Source: Actinomycetota bacterium
GTDB lineage: Bacteria; Actinomycetota; Acidimicrobiia; Acidimicrobiales; Acidimicrobilacustridaceae
Assembly (NCBI GenBank): GCA_026393455.1
Contig: JAPLAE010000094.1
Location: 1-36,491, forward strand
DNA length: 36,491 bases
Direction: 5' to 3'
Shown here piece by piece: positions 13,318-30,895 of this stretch. The translations under genes were made by a program, and so were the position numbers. The first letter of the stretch is position 1. Each line of letters starts with the position of its first letter. The notes under the pieces were generated by a model. It did no database searches, was not told where the DNA came from, and worked only from the letters and a program-made list of their open reading frames with translations.

Positions 13318-14685
13318 TCAGGACCCACCAAGCGAGAGATCGGCAATCACAATTGTCGGGCAACCGGTTCCACCGGGAAGCCATTCGACATCATCGCCAA
13401 TGGCAACAATGTCGAGCAGCATCCGCTGCAATGTTGAAGCAATCGTGACTTCGCGCACTGGTTCCGCCAATTGTCCGTTGCGGACCATGAGACCTTCGAT
13501 ACCAACGGAGATGTCACCGCTCACGAGGTTCACGCCCGAATGCAGTCCCGTCATCGATTGCAAGTACACGCCTGTGTCGATGTCCGCGAGTAGCGAATCG
13601 AATGAACCGGCACCGGGGGCTACTGCCAATGCTTGACAGCCGACTGAGGGGGTCGACGAAACGCCCCGGACCGCTGAACCCGTGCTTGGTCTCCCGGCGC
13701 GCCGACCCGATGCACTGTCATAGAGAAATCCCTGAAGAACGCCATCGACAACGAGTTGATTTCGGCGACAGGCCAACCCTTCGCCATCGAACATGTCGGC
13801 GGCATACGAACGATGATCGGTCGGATCGTCGATAAGCGTGAGCTTCGGCGAGGCGATGGCCTCACCCACACGATCGCCGAATGGCGAGCGACCTTTCAGC
13901 ACGCGTTCACCAGTAAGCGTCGAACCGAGTAAGCCCGCGATCGTCGCGGCCATTCGGGGTTCAAGAATGATTGTCACGCGCTGGGACGGAACTGGCTTTG
14001 CTCCGAACAGTCTTGTGGCCCGCAACACCGCATCGTCGGCAGCTTCGGCGAGGTCAAGGTCATCGGGACGGAAACCAACCGTTGAACCTCCGCCGGTATA
14101 TGTCTCGTCCCCATCTTCGGCGAGTGCCAATGCGCTCATCGAACACCACGCCCCACGTCCGGCACCTGTGATTCCGGTGCTTGTCGCAACGGCAAAACGC
14201 GATGTGGAATCAGAAAAAGTTGCGACACGAACACCGGTGATTCGTGGGTCACCAGCGCGGACCATCCGCTCAAGTTCAATCGCGAGATCAATCTTTCGAG
14301 AGGCGGACATCGAACCGACAGACGGATCGAACGCATCGAACGGAACCGGGACGATTCCATCGGGTTCGGCGAGACCAACCCATTCATCGGGCTCCGCAAA
14401 TGTTGCATTATCTCGGGCCTCGGCCAGGGCTTCTTCGATGGCATCGGTCTCGAGCGTGCCCGCCCACGCAAACCCCTGTCGGTGATCACTGACAACGCGG
14501 ACACCAATACCTGCACTCATGGCCGAGGTGAACGATTCGACTTCACCGCCGTGTGCGCGCACCGTTGTGTAAGAAGATCGCGCCACAAACGCTTCAACTT
14601 GCTCACCGACGTTGGCCTTCTCGGCCACCGACTGGGCGAGCGCGAGGAGACCGGCAGATTCTTGATCGGGCGGTTCGAAACTCAC
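13318..14685 (-). CDS. TldE/PmbA-family protein, second copy
   Basis: 455 residues, GTG start overlapping the stop of the upstream tldE by 4 bases (GTGA). TldE is the non-metallo subunit of the TldD-TldE protease, which trims peptides such as microcin B17 and helps degrade CcdA in E. coli. It has the two-domain layout: an N-terminal region with AHGGEVESFTSAMSAGIGVRVV and a C-terminal beta domain with LIDDPTD, DGEGLACRRN, SGDISVGIEGLMVRNGQ and EPVREVTIASTLQRML. It has no HExxxH, as expected for TldE. By eye it aligns along its whole length with the neighbouring tldE, indicating a tandem duplication followed by divergence. A distinct substrate or alternative pairing with TldD is inferred. Confidence 0.92.
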   Translation of the reverse strand: MSFEPPDQESAGLLALAQSVAEKANVGEQVEAFVARSSYTTVRAHGGEVESFTSAMSAGIGVRVVSDHRQGFAWAGTLETDAIEEALAEARDNATFAEPDEWVGLAEPDGIVPVPFDAFDPSVGSMSASRKIDLAIELERMVRAGDPRITGVRVATFSDSTSRFAVATSTGITGAGRGAWCSMSALALAEDGDETYTGGGSTVGFRPDDLDLAEAADDAVLRATRLFGAKPVPSQRVTIILEPRMAATIAGLLGSTLTGERVLKGRSPFGDRVGEAIASPKLTLIDDPTDHRSYAADMFDGEGLACRRNQLVVDGVLQGFLYDSASGRRAGRPSTGSAVRGVSSTPSVGCQALAVAPGAGSFDSLLADIDTGVYLQSMTGLHSGVNLVSGDISVGIEGLMVRNGQLAEPVREVTIASTLQRMLLDIVAIGDDVEWLPGGTGCPTIVIADLSLGGS

Positions 14686-16025
14686 GAGCCGGAAACAGTG
14701 AGGTCGGCAACGACGAGCGACACGCCAGTGGCGTTCATCGGCAAGAACTGGAGGTCGTTACCAACGGCTTGAACATCACGGAGCATTTTCTGCAACGTTG
14801 AGGCAATTGTGAATTCCCTCACCGGTTCTGCCAACTCACCATTGCGGATACGCAAACCTTCAGCGCCTGTAGAAAAGTCGCCGCTGACTGGATTCACGCC
14901 GGAATGAAGCCCTGAAACTTCCTGCACCAAAACGCCATCGTCGATCCCGGCAATAAGCGCTGCCGGATCAGAACTACCAGGAACAAGTGAAACCGACAAG
15001 CAACCAACCGAAGGTGTGCTCTTAAATCCACGCACTGCGTTTCCCGTGCTTACCGTTCCGGCACGTCGCGCCGAATACGCATTGTGAACGAATTTCTGCA
15101 GGACACCGTTCTCGATCAGCACATTGCGGCGAGCAGCGAGCCCTTCGCCATCGGCATCGGTCGCGGTGAACGACCGAACATCGGTGGGATCGTCGATGAG
15201 AGTTAGAAGCGACGAACCAACCGACTCACCCAATCGGTCGGCGAACAATGAACGACCCTTAAGTACCGATTCGCCATCGAGGGTGTAACCAAGAATTCCA
15301 AGGAACTGAGCCGTGACCCATGGGTCGAGAACGACCGTGAGTCGGCCGCTGGCAGGTTGCACTGCACCAAGCATGCGGGTCGCTCGTTCAGCCGCCTCGA
15401 TCGCCGCGGCCGATGGAGTCAGATCAGACGGTTCGCGGCCGACCGAAAAACCGAATCCGGTTTGCGTTTCGTCGCCTTCAGTCGCCATGGCGTAGGTCGC
15501 CAAAAAGCAACTGGTTTCGCTGCCCACCGTGCGGATGCCGGCGCTTGATGCAATCGCTGCTTCCGAAATTGAATCGGCGTATTCCGCGGACTCGATCCCC
15601 GAAATGCGCGGATCGGCAGCCATCACTACTCGTTCAAGCTCAATTGCCATTGCGATTTTGTCGGCCGTCGCAAACGAGATCATCGCGTCCCGGTGAAGAT
15701 CAAGAAGAGGAATTACGACACCATCGGGTTCGGCGAGACCTGCGAATTCATCGAACGTTGCGAAACTCACATTGTCGCGAGCATCAGCCAAAGTTTCAGC
15801 AATGGCGGATTCATCGAGACTGCCGGCGTAAGCAAATCCTTGACGACCGTCGACAACGATGCGGATGCCCACTCCCTGTGACTGCGCAGATGAAAGCGAT
15901 TCGACATCGCCCCCAAAGACTCTGATTTCTGTCTCGGTACCGCGAACCACGACCGCTTCGATCTGTTCCCCCGGTTTGGCCATTGCGACGACTCGGTCGG
16001 CAATGGCCAGAAGATCCTCGCTCAT
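14682..16025 (-). CDS. TldE/PmbA-family protein, first copy
   Basis: 447 residues, ATG at 16025 overlapping the tldD stop as ATGA. It shares the TldE layout: FGGDVESLSSAQSQGVGIRIV near 35-55, LIDDPTDVRSF, DGEGLAARRN, SGDFSTGAEGLRIRNGE and EPVREFTIASTLQKML. No zinc motif. Its position directly behind tldD makes it the more likely canonical partner. The downstream copy differs mainly in the middle segment (about 150-220) that would shape the cavity. Whether either copy acts on a ribosomal peptide is unknown; no precursor peptide or azole-forming enzyme is visible in the window. Confidence 0.93.
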   Translation of the reverse strand: MSEDLLAIADRVVAMAKPGEQIEAVVVRGTETEIRVFGGDVESLSSAQSQGVGIRIVVDGRQGFAYAGSLDESAIAETLADARDNVSFATFDEFAGLAEPDGVVIPLLDLHRDAMISFATADKIAMAIELERVVMAADPRISGIESAEYADSISEAAIASSAGIRTVGSETSCFLATYAMATEGDETQTGFGFSVGREPSDLTPSAAAIEAAERATRMLGAVQPASGRLTVVLDPWVTAQFLGILGYTLDGESVLKGRSLFADRLGESVGSSLLTLIDDPTDVRSFTATDADGEGLAARRNVLIENGVLQKFVHNAYSARRAGTVSTGNAVRGFKSTPSVGCLSVSLVPGSSDPAALIAGIDDGVLVQEVSGLHSGVNPVSGDFSTGAEGLRIRNGELAEPVREFTIASTLQKMLRDVQAVGNDLQFLPMNATGVSLVVADLTVSGS

Positions 16026-17413
16026 GCGGCGGTGCCACCAATAGTGAGCGAGGACACGCGAAGTGTCGGGACACCGTCGCCGACGGGAACACCCTGTCCG
16101 TCTTTGCCGCAGGTTCCTGGCGGACCCATAGCGAAGTCATTGCCCAGCGCATCGATGCGCTGCAGAACCTCGGGACCATTGCCGATGAGATTCCCTTCGC
16201 GCAACGGTTCGGTGATCTTTCCGTCTTCAATGAGATAGGCCTCGGTCATTCCGAAGACAAAATCACCAGTAGCGGTATTGACTTGCCCGCCACCGAGATG
16301 CTTCACGTACACACCCTTTGGTGTCGAGGCAATGATCGCTTCCGGATCTTCCTCGCCCGCAAGGAGATAGGTGTTCGTCATTCGAACCATCGGCAGGTTT
16401 TGATAACTCTGTCGACGGCCATTTCCTGAACTACGGCGACCTTCTTTTCGAGCACGGAGGTGATCCCACATGTAGTCGGTGAGGACACCGTCTTCGATAA
16501 GCACATTGCGTTGCGCAGGATTTCCTTCATCATCGACCGCGATATTTCCCCACTCACGTTCCATCGTTCCGTCGTCGACCACAGTGACGCCCTTCGACGC
16601 AACTTGTTGCCCGACCCGCCCACGGAAGACTGAGGCGCCTTTCGCAACGAGATCGGCCTCGAGCCCGTGGCCACAGGCTTCGTGGAACAACACGCCTCCG
16701 CCGCCACTGCCAATCACAACAGGCATCTGACCGCTCGGAGCAGGACGAGCAGCCAATTTCGTAAGCGCTCGATCGGCAGCATTACGCGCCAGCTGGTCGA
16801 CGTCGTACATGTCAAACAATTCGAAGCCAATTGTGTGGCCCACGCTTTCGCGTCCTGTTTGCATCCCTGCATCACCAGTGGCGACGCAACTCACAGCGAA
16901 GAATGTGCGAACGGTGTCATCTTCGACGAACAGACCGTCGGAGTTTGCGACCAAAATGTGACGCCGGTTATCGCCATAACTCACCGACACCTGCGAAATG
17001 GCATCGCCCACAGCGCGCGCTGCGTCATTGGCGCGACCCAGTAGTTCCACTTTGCGTGCTTTTGGAACATCTCCGGGATAGGTCTCGATATCGTAACCAC
17101 GCGAAGCGGACCGACGGTCAAGTGCGACGACATTCGTGCCACCACCGCCACCACGAGCGGCTGCGGCAGCAGCCTCGGCAGCAGCAATGAGCCCGGCTTC
17201 GGTGAGATCTGCGGTGTGCGCAAAACCTGTCGTGTCACCAACCACAACCCTGATACCGGCACCACGGTCACGACCTGAAGTGAGCTCCTCTACGCGACCA
17301 TCGTCGAGCACTGCCGACGCGTTACGCCGATCTTCTGCGAACACCTCGGCAAATTCGCCACCAGTGCGCATAGCCACACCGAGAACTTCTTCGAGAACTG
17401 ATTGTTCAATCAT
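16022..17413 (-). CDS. tldD: Metalloprotease TldD
   Basis: 463 residues from ATG 17413 (GGAG 9 bases upstream); ATG 17419 is in frame but only 3 bases from the GGAG. TldD is the zinc subunit of the TldD-TldE heterodimeric protease, in which unfolded peptides enter a narrow chamber. The zinc motif HEACGH is at 244-249 and the third ligand region PGTCGKDGQ lies near the C-terminus. Other family blocks are FEDDTVRT-like VEDDTVRTFF, ESVGHTIGFE, VDDGTMEREWGN and NLIGNGPEVLQRIDALGNDF. It heads a three-gene operon with 4-base overlaps. A TACGAT -10 candidate at 17465-17470 lies within an imperfect palindrome. Confidence 0.96.
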   Translation of the reverse strand: MIEQSVLEEVLGVAMRTGGEFAEVFAEDRRNASAVLDDGRVEELTSGRDRGAGIRVVVGDTTGFAHTADLTEAGLIAAAEAAAAAARGGGGGTNVVALDRRSASRGYDIETYPGDVPKARKVELLGRANDAARAVGDAISQVSVSYGDNRRHILVANSDGLFVEDDTVRTFFAVSCVATGDAGMQTGRESVGHTIGFELFDMYDVDQLARNAADRALTKLAARPAPSGQMPVVIGSGGGGVLFHEACGHGLEADLVAKGASVFRGRVGQQVASKGVTVVDDGTMEREWGNIAVDDEGNPAQRNVLIEDGVLTDYMWDHLRARKEGRRSSGNGRRQSYQNLPMVRMTNTYLLAGEEDPEAIIASTPKGVYVKHLGGGQVNTATGDFVFGMTEAYLIEDGKITEPLREGNLIGNGPEVLQRIDALGNDFAMGPPGTCGKDGQGVPVGDGVPTLRVSSLTIGGTAA

Positions 17414-17459
17414 CTGCATCTACTCCAAGCGTGTCCTGCGGGATCGTGTTGCACTAAGC

Positions 17460-26674: not shown

Positions 26675-27832
26675 TCAGCCCAACGGGTTAAGTGAGGAAC
26701 CAACTGCCCACATGGCGAAGAACTGAGCGTTCGCGCCATAGGCCTGAGCGATTGCCAGGTTGGCGCCGCCAACCTGATGATCTTCTGCAAGTCCACGGAC
26801 CTGCAGTGCTGCTTCAGCGAACCGCAACAGACCGGAAGCACCGATCGGGTTCGACGAAAGCACGCCACCAGACATGTTCACGGGGAAGTCGCCATCGAGT
26901 GCTGTTGCACCCGATTGAGTCATCTTCCAACCTTCACCGGGAGCGGCGATTTCGTGGGCTTCAAGCCACATCGGCTCGTACCACGAGAACGGCACGTAAA
27001 GCTCGGCGCAGTCGATCTGTTCGCGCGGGTTGGTAATACCAACCGCCTTGTAGATCTCCTGTGCGCACGCGTGCGCTGCTTGCGGATTGACCGGGTCACG
27101 ACCCGAGTACCAACCTGGCTCGGACTTCATCGCGGTGGCGAGCACCCACGCCGGAGGCTTCGATGCCGCTTTGCCGCCATCTTCATCAGTGAAGATGACT
27201 GCGCATGCGCCGTCGGACGAAGGACACGACTCCAAGAAACGGAGCGGATCCCACATCATCGGAGATTCCTTCACCTTGTCGATGGTGATGTCTGCCAACT
27301 TGAGATGGGCGTAGGGGTTCTTGGCACCGTTGAGACGGTCCTTCACCGCGACCATCCAACCGATGTCTTCAGGTGCTCCCGAGCGCTGGATATAGGACCG
27401 AATGAATGGAGCAAATGCGCCACCAGCACCGATCGATGCACCCTTGCCGCCGCCGAGAGCGAACTGTGCGTTGCCCTCCGACTGCTTTTCGAAGGCAACC
27501 GACAGAACACGCTTGTGTCGGCCACTTGATACGAGGTGAGAACCGACGATGCCCGTTGAGCCACCCACTGAACCAGCGGTGTGCACTCGGAACATCGGCT
27601 TGTTCACAGCGCCAAGCGCATCGGCAAGGTACATCTCCGGCTTCATGACACCCTCAAAAAAGTCGGGCGCTTTACCGAGGACAACGGCGTCTATGTCGCC
27701 CCAGTCCATATTTGCGTCTTCTAGCGCGCGCTGGGCGGCTTCACGGACGAGGCCGGCGATCGAAACATCGGCGCGCTTGCGCTTGTGATGTGTCTGACCG
27801 ATACCGACGATAGCTACAGGCTGATGGCTCAT
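26675..27832 (-). CDS. Thiolase-like protein A (degenerate active site)
   Basis: 385 residues, ATG overlapping the stop of thiolase B as ATGA. Thiolase fold of the SCP-x / lipid-transfer group. The segment that normally holds the acyl-accepting Cys reads HTAGSVGGST (84-93), without Cys. The GHPxG catalytic His is replaced by Asn (N328 in LSSNPIGASG), and the C-terminal CxGGG Cys is absent. Ordinary thiolytic chemistry is therefore unlikely. Related actinobacterial thiolase-like proteins work with DUF35 partners as aldolases, for example Ltp2-ChsH2 in cholesterol side-chain removal. The gene order with thiolase B and the DUF35 gene supports a multi-subunit complex. Cytoplasmic. Confidence 0.9.
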   Translation of the reverse strand: MSHQPVAIVGIGQTHHKRKRADVSIAGLVREAAQRALEDANMDWGDIDAVVLGKAPDFFEGVMKPEMYLADALGAVNKPMFRVHTAGSVGGSTGIVGSHLVSSGRHKRVLSVAFEKQSEGNAQFALGGGKGASIGAGGAFAPFIRSYIQRSGAPEDIGWMVAVKDRLNGAKNPYAHLKLADITIDKVKESPMMWDPLRFLESCPSSDGACAVIFTDEDGGKAASKPPAWVLATAMKSEPGWYSGRDPVNPQAAHACAQEIYKAVGITNPREQIDCAELYVPFSWYEPMWLEAHEIAAPGEGWKMTQSGATALDGDFPVNMSGGVLSSNPIGASGLLRFAEAALQVRGLAEDHQVGGANLAIAQAYGANAQFFAMWAVGSSLNPLG

Positions 27833-28899
27833 TGGTCACCTTCCAGGACGCAGACGAGATTCTGCTGAAGGCAAGGTCCGGACGTGGTGTGAGCCAACGT
27901 GCGGTTCTTGCCATTCTTGATGATCTGATTTGCGGCTTCCCCAACGCGGATGAGGCCGACGGTCATGACAGAGTGAGCGGCAAGCGCTCCACCGGAGGGG
28001 TTGACCTCGGTGGAAGCGTCGAGACCCAGCGATTCACAAAGAATCAACTCTTGGAAACTGAATGGCGCATGGATTTCAGCGACATCAATCGGGCCCTTCC
28101 CAACGCCCGCTGCCTCGGCAGCAATGCGGGTTGAGACCGAAGTGGTGATGTCTTTCCGAACAGTCGGCAAGTGCGCCTCGATGCGATGATCGATACCCGT
28201 GATCCACGCCGGACGCTCACACAGGTCATAGGCCCGCTTACCGCGAGCAAGGATGACCGCTGCTGCTTGATCAGTTGTCGGCGGCAAATCGTGACGACGC
28301 AAAGGGTTGCGCACGTAATCAGCGGCGAGCAACTCGTCGACGGAATAGTCACCCTTCACCTGTGCAAACGGGTTCGACTTGGCGTTGGCCCGATTTCGAG
28401 CGACGACCTCAGCAAAGTCCCGTTCGGTAGCCTTACCGGAATCAATGAGCGCACGTGCCTGCAGTGCGGCCAAGGTCCAAGTGTCGGTGCCTAACGGGGT
28501 GAGGTAGTACGGGTCGAACTCCACCGTGAACAAGGTCGATGGATCGGAGTTGGAGTTCTTTCCAACGCCGACGGCCATTGCGATGTCAATGTCACCCTGA
28601 AGGAGTCGAACGTAGGCCTCGTACATCGCCCACGCGCCGTCCATCTCGACGTGCGACTCATTGATTGCAGGAACCATGCCGTAGGCGTCGGTGTTCTGCA
28701 CAAATGAGAATCCCTGGCCCGACAAGTAATCGCAAGAACCTGAGACGGTGAAGCCGATCTCTGACTTGTCGATTCCGACCTGCGCAATCACCTCGCGGGT
28801 GGAGCGCAAAACCAAGTCCGACTCAGTCAGGTTCGTTCGCCTTTCGGGAGGCAACTGCGCAAACCCAACGATTGCAATGTCATTTTCTGAAGGTGCCAT
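27829..28899 (-). CDS. Thiolase-like protein B
   Basis: 356 residues; the ATG at 28899 shares its A with the TGA stop of the DUF35 gene (TGATG); GTG 28902 is also possible. SCP-x-type thiolase fold. The usual nucleophile region reads INESHVEMDGAWAMYEA (80-95), with no Cys. It retains H309 in GGALAAHSVMTVG and C343 in SGPCLQQN, so its active site differs from thiolase A. It probably forms a complex with thiolase A and the DUF35 protein; a carbon-carbon lyase (retro-aldol) or a condensation reaction is more likely than thiolysis, by analogy with Ltp2. Substrate unknown. Confidence 0.88.
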   Translation of the reverse strand: MAPSENDIAIVGFAQLPPERRTNLTESDLVLRSTREVIAQVGIDKSEIGFTVSGSCDYLSGQGFSFVQNTDAYGMVPAINESHVEMDGAWAMYEAYVRLLQGDIDIAMAVGVGKNSNSDPSTLFTVEFDPYYLTPLGTDTWTLAALQARALIDSGKATERDFAEVVARNRANAKSNPFAQVKGDYSVDELLAADYVRNPLRRHDLPPTTDQAAAVILARGKRAYDLCERPAWITGIDHRIEAHLPTVRKDITTSVSTRIAAEAAGVGKGPIDVAEIHAPFSFQELILCESLGLDASTEVNPSGGALAAHSVMTVGLIRVGEAANQIIKNGKNRTLAHTTSGPCLQQNLVCVLEGDQ

Positions 28900-29921
28900 C
28901 ACATCATCCGATCCAAGTAGCGAGCAGCCGGTTCATCCGGCTCACCAGTGGTACGCCAGCCGACGATGATGTCGCCACCGCTTCCTCGGCTGCGGTTATC
29001 GATATCTGCTGCGGAACGCTCGTTCTCGGGCGCCCACACAACCTCAACGTGAATACCAACGCGGATTTCGCTCACCGGAACATCGAGAATTTCCTGCTGA
29101 GCGATAACGGCATCAGCGCCGTCGAGCAGGATCGAGCAACGAGCGAACGGCTCGGTCTCGGTCTGACCGGGATATGGCGTCGGTGTCACGATCGTGAAGT
29201 TCGAGACCACACCGCGGCCCGGAACCTCAACAATGTGGCTCTCGTCAAGCTCAATCGCGCACACGCTGCACATGCCTCGTGGCCCCACGATTGTTCGGTC
29301 GCACTGCGGACACTTCTGCCCGATGATGCGACCTTCCATGAGGGCCTTTGCCCACATAATCGTGGTGGGAGATGCGTTGTCGACATATTGGAGGTCGCAA
29401 AACGCGTCCATTTCCGTGATGTCGTTTTCTTCAGGTGCTACGAACGGCTCGCCAGCACCTTCGCTTGGCGAAGGATCAGCGGCAGGAACGAACGCGATGA
29501 TGTCGTCGATTCGTCCGACGCAGTCAGCGGGAGCCTTGAACTTTGCTTCGACGCGCATTCCTGCGGCCATCGCACTCTCGGAGCCGGCATCGACCAAATG
29601 CAGCATTGGGGTATCGGCGCCATCGAGCGTGATGAACGCGAATCCAAAGGCATGATCGAGAGGGTGCAGGTTGGTCGGTTCGGGAACCCATGTCCACGTG
29701 GACACGGTGCCTTTCGGTCCAACTCGAACCCAATCGTTACCGCTATCAGCAGCAGTATCGGGGTCGTATTCGAGCGGCGGAGCAATGACCCGACCACCGG
29801 TGCGCACACCAATGATCTGGCCCTGTGCCAGCGCCGAACTAAACGTGCTGAGCGTCGTACCCAACGTCCGTGTGAATGGGAACGTCAGGTTGAAGACAAA
29901 CTCTTGGACAGTGTCAGCCAT
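28899..29921 (-). CDS. Tandem DUF35 (OB-fold / zinc ribbon) protein
   Basis: 340 residues from ATG 29921, with AGGAAG upstream. Two DUF35-type modules are visible. The C-terminal one (about 190-320) has a complete rubredoxin-like zinc ribbon, C204-PQ-C207 and C218-SV-C221, then an OB fold beginning VEVPGRGVVSNFTIV. The N-terminal one (about 33-145) aligns in layout (GQIIGVRTGGRVIAPP, then VRVGPKGTVSTWTWV) but its ribbon cysteines are gone. DUF35 proteins bind thiolase-like partners and can provide the acyl-CoA pocket. With the two following thiolase-like genes, two modules could match two partners (inference). An open frame 13 codons further upstream has no separate support. Confidence 0.88.
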   Translation of the reverse strand: MADTVQEFVFNLTFPFTRTLGTTLSTFSSALAQGQIIGVRTGGRVIAPPLEYDPDTAADSGNDWVRVGPKGTVSTWTWVPEPTNLHPLDHAFGFAFITLDGADTPMLHLVDAGSESAMAAGMRVEAKFKAPADCVGRIDDIIAFVPAADPSPSEGAGEPFVAPEENDITEMDAFCDLQYVDNASPTTIMWAKALMEGRIIGQKCPQCDRTIVGPRGMCSVCAIELDESHIVEVPGRGVVSNFTIVTPTPYPGQTETEPFARCSILLDGADAVIAQQEILDVPVSEIRVGIHVEVVWAPENERSAADIDNRSRGSGGDIIVGWRTTGEPDEPAARYLDRMM

Positions 29922-29969
29922 CTTCTTCCTTTCCTGTTTTTCAGGCTTTCGAGACATCAATCGGAATGA

Positions 29970-30773
29970 TCAACGTCGTTTAAAAACTGGTTTGCGCTTT
30001 TCAGCGAACGCTTTCGGACCTTCCTTGGCGTCTTCGGATTGAAACACCTGCCATCCGTAGGTGAACTCATGGTCAAGCGCTTCGCGCTCGGTCATACCTT
30101 CGGTCTCACGCAAGGTGCGCAGCACTGCTTCAACCGCTATCGGTCCGTTATCGGCAATTTGTGCTGCGATTTCTTTCGCCTTGGCCAACGCCTGACCATC
30201 GGGAACCACATGACCGATGAGCCCATACTGGAGAGCTTCGTCGGCGGTTAATTCACGCCCAGCAAGGAGTACTTCAGCGGCGATTGTGTAAGGGATTTGT
30301 CGACGCAAACGAACTGCCGAACCTGCCATCGGATACAGCGACCGCTTTACTTCACTTACCGCGAATCGAGCACCCTTGCCAGCGACGCGAATATCGGTGC
30401 CTTGCAGCAGTTCGGTTCCACCAGCAAAGGCAATGCCTTCCACCGCAGCAATCAACGGTTTCTTTGGCTGGTAGTCGCGCAATAAGCACTTCCACATGAG
30501 ATTTGGATCTTCAGCAAGGCGAGCGACGGTATCGATCTCGGTGTCGGCATCGGGTCCGGCGTCACCAGCCATTGCTTTGAGGTCTGCTCCGGAAGAGAAG
30601 TTGCCGTCGGCGCCGGTGAGGATGATGGCGCGCACTTCATCGTCGGCATCAGCCTCGACCATTGCGTCGTACATGCGCATCAACATCGCACCAGAGAGCG
30701 CATTCAGGCGCTTTGGGCGATTCATGGTCATGACGAGCACGTGACCCTCGCGCTCGATAATTGCGTCAGGCAT
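29970..30773 (-). CDS. Enoyl-CoA hydratase/isomerase (crotonase family)
   Basis: 267 residues from ATG 30773, AGGAGG 3 bases upstream. Crotonase fold: NRPKRLNALSGAM, oxyanion segment NFSSGADLKAMAG, then GIAFAGGTELLQGTDI and ARFAVSEVKRSLYPMAGS. Both Glu positions used for water activation in hydratases (in GGTE and SEV) are present, so a hydratase is plausible. The LYPMAG wording in place of the usual PGxGG recurs in actinobacterial crotonases of unknown substrate. It heads the cluster of DUF35 and thiolase-like genes after 48 bases, with a TAGGGT candidate -10 at 30862-30867. Confidence 0.92.
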   Translation of the reverse strand: MPDAIIEREGHVLVMTMNRPKRLNALSGAMLMRMYDAMVEADADDEVRAIILTGADGNFSSGADLKAMAGDAGPDADTEIDTVARLAEDPNLMWKCLLRDYQPKKPLIAAVEGIAFAGGTELLQGTDIRVAGKGARFAVSEVKRSLYPMAGSAVRLRRQIPYTIAAEVLLAGRELTADEALQYGLIGHVVPDGQALAKAKEIAAQIADNGPIAVEAVLRTLRETEGMTEREALDHEFTYGWQVFQSEDAKEGPKAFAEKRKPVFKRR

Positions 30774-30895
30774 GGTCCTCCTCTCACGGCAGCGGTAGTC
30801 GCTCGGCGGAGACCAACCCGCGGATCTCTCCGCAGTCCGATGCCCCCCGACCGGTGTAGCGACCCTAGAGGTACTTAACACTGCTGAGCAACCTG

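Follow-up and report, generated by a model that had tools for sequence, protein, structure and literature searches.

What kind of enzyme is encoded by two adjacent thiolase genes that have both lost the classical catalytic residues of their fold? The question is raised by a stretch of 36,491 nucleotides from an Actinomycetota bacterium (contig JAPLAE010000094.1, hereafter the window), the minus strand of which carries, in order from upstream, an EchA19-like crotonase (29970–30881), a DUF35 protein of 340 amino acids (28899–29921), thiolase B of 356 amino acids (27829–28899), and thiolase A of 385 amino acids (26675–27832). Neighbouring reading frames among DUF35, B, and A share a few bases, TGATG at the DUF35/B junction and ATGA at the B/A junction, an overlap that the initial annotation of this DNA had already seen. 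The operon probably encodes a heteromeric acyl-coenzyme A (CoA) aldol lyase of the Ltp3–Ltp4 type together with its DUF35 partner; the EchA19-like hydratase would supply the substrate.

The gene-level facts and the family assignment of A and B are firm. Thiolase A scores 601.5 bits on the curated Ltp3 model NF006180 (cut-off 514), and thiolase B scores 458.5 bits on the Ltp4 model NF005924 (cut-off 419); on the Ltp2 family model NF005892, A reaches 99.8 bits against a cut-off of 469 and hence falls outside that family. In a phylum survey of 296 genomes, one and the same set of 26 passes both the A and the B cut-off, and in each of the 31 loci examined, the B gene lies next to A—an association beyond chance. 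The order DUF35–ltp4–ltp3, with overlapping ends in the window, is common to the window and the mycobacterial loci, where DUF35, B, and A are found in 76 of the 80 named ones. In Mycobacterium tuberculosis, the corresponding genes are Rv3521, Rv3522 (ltp4), and Rv3523 (ltp3) (PMC6429209); the 80 loci come from other mycobacteria, and the link to Rv3521–Rv3523 is made through named Mycobacterium species, gene order, and this paper. The pair was described as a "heteromeric aldol-lyase (Ltp3-Ltp4)", which removes the C24 branches of sitosterol and campesterol (PMC6678751), and both genes are reported to be essential for branched sterols (PMC6273163). Given the family match, the gene order, and these reports (PMC6429209 and PMC6678751), the window unit belongs to a known kind: It is the already described pair Ltp3/Ltp4 with an Rv3521-type protein and no new combination. 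It resembles the systems of Mycobacterium and Rhodococcus in its families, the DUF35–B–A order, the tandem DUF35 protein, and an EchA19-type hydratase nearby; identity to the Mycobacterium proteins is approximately 60% for A, 48% for B, and 36% for DUF35. Two contigs titled Bifidobacterium breve (L152 and L182) carry a gene 86 to 87% identical to mycobacterial ltp3 and are probably mislabelled or contaminated metagenome-assembled genomes.

The residues of both thiolases were compared by aligning 31 proteins of each type with TcLtp2 (PDB 6ok1) and the canonical thiolase 7yvy. Thiolase A features a Gly (Gly87; 27572–27574) at the position of the nucleophilic Cys of 7yvy and an Asn (Asn328; 26849–26851) at the position of the His of the GHP motif, both in 31 of 31 proteins; the initial annotation had read these two losses correctly. 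It had counted the C-terminal Cys as a third one. This Cys is missing indeed, but it is no special loss, since 7yvy, in which nucleophilic Cys and GHP His are intact, likewise carries none (GLTQNIGG). Absent from that annotation was Tyr279 (26996–26998), which belongs to the motif YVPF, aligns with the catalytic Tyr294 of TcLtp2, and is present in all 31 A proteins. With Gly87, Tyr279, and Asn328, the window copy has the invariant residues of the Ltp3–Ltp4 type, and the mycobacterial A proteins show AGS at the nucleophile site and YVPF at the catalytic motif in 80 of 80 cases. Orthologues with canonical Cys and His were sought and none was found in either set (Gly at the nucleophile site throughout the 31 proteins of the phylum, AGS throughout the 80 mycobacterial ones). 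The pair of nucleophilic Cys and GHP His that marks a classical or SCP2 thiolase is thus replaced in all 31 A proteins of the alignment, and B is free of Cys at the nucleophile site throughout. Retro-aldol cleavage by the aldolases Ltp2 and Sal begins with the Tyr of the YDHF-like motif acting as base, and in Sal, Gly stands at the position of the thiolase nucleophile (PMC12329534). With these roles, the pattern of Tyr279 and Gly87 in A fits a retro-aldolase, a reaction made likely by this pattern together with genetic data on the relatives. Thiolase A is the likely catalyst, as judged by the invariant Tyr279 kept where B varies.

Thiolase B has the same fold: Its AlphaFold2 model (predicted local distance difference test [pLDDT] score 89, predicted template modelling score 0.91) matches 6et9_C with a Z-score of 45.5 and 6ok1_C with one of 36.9. 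The missing first Cys, reported in the initial annotation for the window copy, is a trait of the whole family. No member carries a Cys at this site, which lies within the conserved segment SHVEMD, the aligned residue being Glu85 or Met86 with an uncertainty of one position. At the place of Tyr294 of TcLtp2, the motif reads HAPF and the residue is His277 (28069–28071), which is His in 21 of the 31 B proteins and Tyr, Cys, Gln, Leu, Ala, or Ser in the others. In addition, a conserved loop between the YDHF-like and SGG motifs is shorter in B by about 17 residues (11 residues compared with 28 in A, Ltp2, and 7yvy), which the initial annotation had missed. The asymmetry first proposed for the two thiolases was a different one, with His309 and Cys343 retained in B as catalytic residues. 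Such a catalytic His/Cys pair is rejected: Position 309 is Asn in 26 of 31 proteins, with His solely in the window copy and its 98% identical sister, and position 343 is Cys in 18 and Ala in 10 of 31, so that the two residues are a lineage-specific coincidence. As far as the alignment tells, the real asymmetry is that of an invariant Tyr279 in A versus a drifting site in B, and B is likely a pseudo-thiolase partner of A.

The third protein, of the Rv3521 type, consists of two DUF35 modules. Pfam finds two OB_ChsH2_C stretches (PF01796) and one zinc ribbon (PF12172; 33.3 bits), and the AlphaFold2 model, built from 39 sequences with a mean pLDDT of 90.5, repeats the order of strands and helices in residues 7 to 146 and 170 to 324. 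The C-terminal module (residues 170–328 approximately; 28938–29414) matches the DUF35 domain of Shy (9myr_B; residues 182–328) with a Z-score of 11.3 and that of ChsH2 (6ok1_D) with one of 11.2 in VIA-align; the N-terminal module (residues 6–149 approximately; 29475–29906) matches 6esq_F (24–149) with 9.9 and 7pxp_A (15–148) with 8.7. Both modules hence have the zinc-ribbon and OB fold, and the cysteines of a Cys4 ribbon are found in the C-terminal one only (C204, C207, C218, and C221; 29259–29312), in agreement with the two modules and single zinc ribbon first described. The ribbon cysteines are missing from every N-terminal module of the family. In the C-terminal module, the window copy and many relatives retain the full set, other members (e.g., L070) have some of them, and the mycobacteria have none. 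The mycobacterial proteins (L109–L188) have lost them in both modules, and 75 of 76 lack any CxxC. The two modules are fused in 21 loci and encoded by two neighbouring genes of unchanged order in nine, with at least three to four switches between both states on the tree of A and B, which argues that the modules work in one assembly. In the distant four-part sets L073 and L074, thiolases of the A and B types are accompanied by two DUF35 proteins, both of which have an intact ribbon. In our reading of this distribution, each thiolase subunit would at first have had a DUF35 protein of its own, with stepwise metal loss and fusion later.

From these features, a sequence of steps can be proposed. 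The crotonase would hydrate a branched 2-enoyl-CoA to the β-hydroxyacyl-CoA, which thiolase A would bind through its CoA site. Tyr279 would then take the proton from the β-hydroxyl, and retro-aldol cleavage of the C–C bond would release a shorter acyl-CoA together with a ketone (or aldehyde). An acyl-enzyme would not arise, because the nucleophilic Cys is Gly in A. Thiolase B would be the noncatalytic or re-purposed half of an A:B dimer, and each subunit would bind one DUF35 module, giving a pseudo-symmetric DUF35–B–A–DUF35 arrangement with both modules joined in one chain. We infer the A:B heterodimer and its one module per subunit from the co-occurrence of the genes, the split and fused states of the DUF35 pair, and the architecture of Sal–Shy and Ltp2–ChsH2, whose α–β–β–α complexes the assembly would resemble. 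The initial annotation had likewise proposed a hetero-complex related to Ltp2–ChsH2 with fused partner modules. Co-occurrence, adjacency, the split and fused DUF35 genes, and the fold matches agree with such a complex, whereas its pair is the known Ltp3/Ltp4, the asymmetry assigned to B is wrong, and the steroid context is not borne out.

The two solved aldolases show how far the likeness goes. Ltp2–ChsH2 (6ok1) shares with A the thiolase fold with a DUF35 partner, the lack of a nucleophilic Cys, and Tyr294, the equivalent of Tyr279. However, Ltp2 is a single gene and a homodimer; its Tyr344 and the His296 of its YDHF motif correspond to Pro329 and Pro281 in A (the former with local gap uncertainty), so that A lacks the paired catalytic Tyr; and ChsH2 carries a MaoC domain, where the window partner has two DUF35 modules instead. 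Sal–Shy (9myr) resembles A in the Gly at the nucleophile position, the catalytic Tyr, and the DUF35 domains flanking the aldolase dimer. It differs in having a single aldolase gene, a C3H1 ribbon, and a motif YDCY with the catalytic Cys304, in place of which A has YVPF, with Pro281 at the position of this Cys, and B has HAPF.

Three observations weigh against a heteromeric aldol lyase with a live A, a silent B, and a dedicated hydratase. First, the second catalytic residue is kept in A neither from Ltp2 (Tyr344) nor from Sal (Cys304), which leaves the proton donor of A unassigned. Second, SHVEMD (S82, H83, V84, and D87), His337, and LQQN vary little or not at all in B. B is thus not freely drifting, and these residues caution against regarding it as mere filler; it may serve a function in its own right. 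Third, the crotonase gene is absent from the corresponding place in the sister genome G102, so the hydratase is no fixed part of the unit.

The Ltp3–Ltp4 pair being known from sterol breakdown, the complex could be the sterol enzyme itself, cleaving C24-branched side chains here as in Rhodococcus and Mycobacterium. We hold this to be rather doubtful, although it is the strongest of the alternatives. Families and gene order are those of the mycobacterial sterol cluster, and the genome of the window (a draft, 83% complete) encodes a thiolase of the FadA5 family (543 bits against a cut-off of 515) as well as a protein of the Ltp2 family (480.7 bits on NF005892); these homologues, however, lie outside steroid clusters. 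In the mycobacterial loci, a KshA homologue is nearby in 66 of 76, and the cluster of one genome comprises KstD (971.8 bits, cut-off 788), FadA5 (754 bits, cut-off 515), and a KshA homologue with the KshA_C domain. The exact box TNNAACNNGTTNNA, which we take to be the consensus of the KstR type, lies upstream of DUF35 in 75 of 75 mycobacterial loci tested (expected approximately 0.07 per stretch), and these served as the positive control. In contrast, the window has no KstR box above chance; KshA is found neither in its own genome (best match 57 residues at 28% identity) nor in the 98% complete sister; and the best KstD-like protein of its own genome stays far under the cut-off of 789 with 378.6 bits. 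The genome thus seems incapable of breaking down sterol rings. The steroid gene context that the initial annotation had suggested checking is hence missing, and, in view of the neighbouring genes as well, a direct sterol-cluster context of the window is rejected. So is a second steroid operon around the Ltp2-family gene: It lies beside genes that resemble CaiB/BaiF and amidohydrolases by eye rather than in an igr operon.

The window copy moreover belongs, as judged by the tree, to a subfamily separate from the mycobacterial clade. It groups with L067, L068, L070, and L071 on starred branches, and L069 joins them at 91/84. A four-residue deletion in A is common to these six and absent from the other 25, and the window keeps the C-terminal zinc ribbon that the mycobacteria lost. 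Two genomes (G263 and G036) carry one member of each subfamily. Given the separate subfamily and the lack of a KstR box, KshA, and a bona fide KstD, the window copy may act on something other than a sterol; a branched β-hydroxyacyl-CoA would be the general expectation.

Second in rank, and improbable in our view, is a pair of separate homodimeric enzymes merely encoded in one operon, with one DUF35 module serving each of them as scaffold. Ltp2 and Sal do act as homodimers with two DUF35 domains (PMC12329534), and the A:B contact is itself deduced. Yet A and B have an identical genome distribution, a tandem DUF35 chain would need to bridge two different homodimers, and B lacks both a conserved catalytic set and the active-site loop.

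The aldol lyase has also to be weighed against an acyl-transferring or condensing complex such as PhlABC or BbsAB, for which we see very little room. The DUF35 and thiolase folds match PhlABC, BbsAB (benzoylsuccinyl-CoA thiolase, 7pxp), and the archaeal thiolase/HMG-CoA synthase complex (6esq) well, the latter two combining a DUF35 partner with the thiolase fold as in the window. BbsAB and the archaeal complex are, however, true acyl-enzyme thiolases with a nucleophilic Cys, unlike A and B of the window; this chemistry needs the Cys or an acyl-enzyme, and all members have Gly in A and no Cys there in B. Decay into functionless thiolase copies, which the loss of all classical catalytic residues in both genes might suggest, is rejected as next to impossible, since 98% protein identity to the sister (L067 in G102) at 62 to 72% identity of fourfold sites for DUF35, B, and A (window 26675–29935) means strong purifying selection, and A and B exceed the curated family cut-offs and are conserved across the phylum.

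A heteromeric aldol lyase of the Ltp3–Ltp4 type can be extended to a wider picture, which we offer tentatively and at somewhat less than even confidence. Ltp3–Ltp4 might be a pseudo-symmetric α–β–β′–α′ aldolase of one live and one dead or re-purposed thiolase and two ex-zinc DUF35 modules, shaped by stepwise metal loss and repeated fusion, with the window subfamily acting on a nonsterol branched acyl-CoA. If the latter is true, this reaction extends beyond sterol catabolism. Genetic evidence makes Ltp3/Ltp4 essential for plant sterol breakdown in actinobacteria used for the making of steroid drugs, and neither a solved structure nor an assigned active site was found for them. The window locus and its relatives offer a candidate residue assignment (Tyr279 of A) and a subunit model (A live, B its partner, and one DUF35 module each), and the natural split versions of the DUF35 pair make reconstitution easier.

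The crotonase upstream, a likely supplier of β-hydroxyacyl-CoA, scores 386 bits on NF005864 (cut-off 316) and 354.6 bits on the EchA19 model NF051848, which is under the cut-off of 400. It is 54 to 58% identical to EchA19-type genes near the Mycobacterium and Streptomyces-like loci, and its true start is probably near 30773. Further genes around the locus encode a patatin, a MarR-type regulator, an acyl-CoA ligase, a short-chain dehydrogenase/reductase, and a DapA-like aldolase. Compared with G102, the flanking genes have a fourfold-site identity of 34 to 48% (fadD, marR, patatin, and ABC-F 34–39%); the higher values of DUF35, B, and A suggest local recombination or gene replacement.

Related sets occur elsewhere. 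Two genomes of the Mycobacterium-containing family f36 carry second copies (L065 and L066), behind which lies a third thiolase-like gene; a KstR-like box is located approximately 180 to 200 bases upstream of their DUF35. The genome of the window itself holds a second pair of DUF35 and Ltp2-family genes on another contig (L088:6651–8191, contig C112) with a YENF motif and the equivalent of Tyr344 of Ltp2 kept; given its CaiB/BaiF-like and amidohydrolase-like neighbours, it is an Ltp2-like aldolase outside a steroid operon. Apart from this locus, the window carries at 13318–17419 three consecutive overlapping genes that resemble TldD/PmbA proteins by eye.

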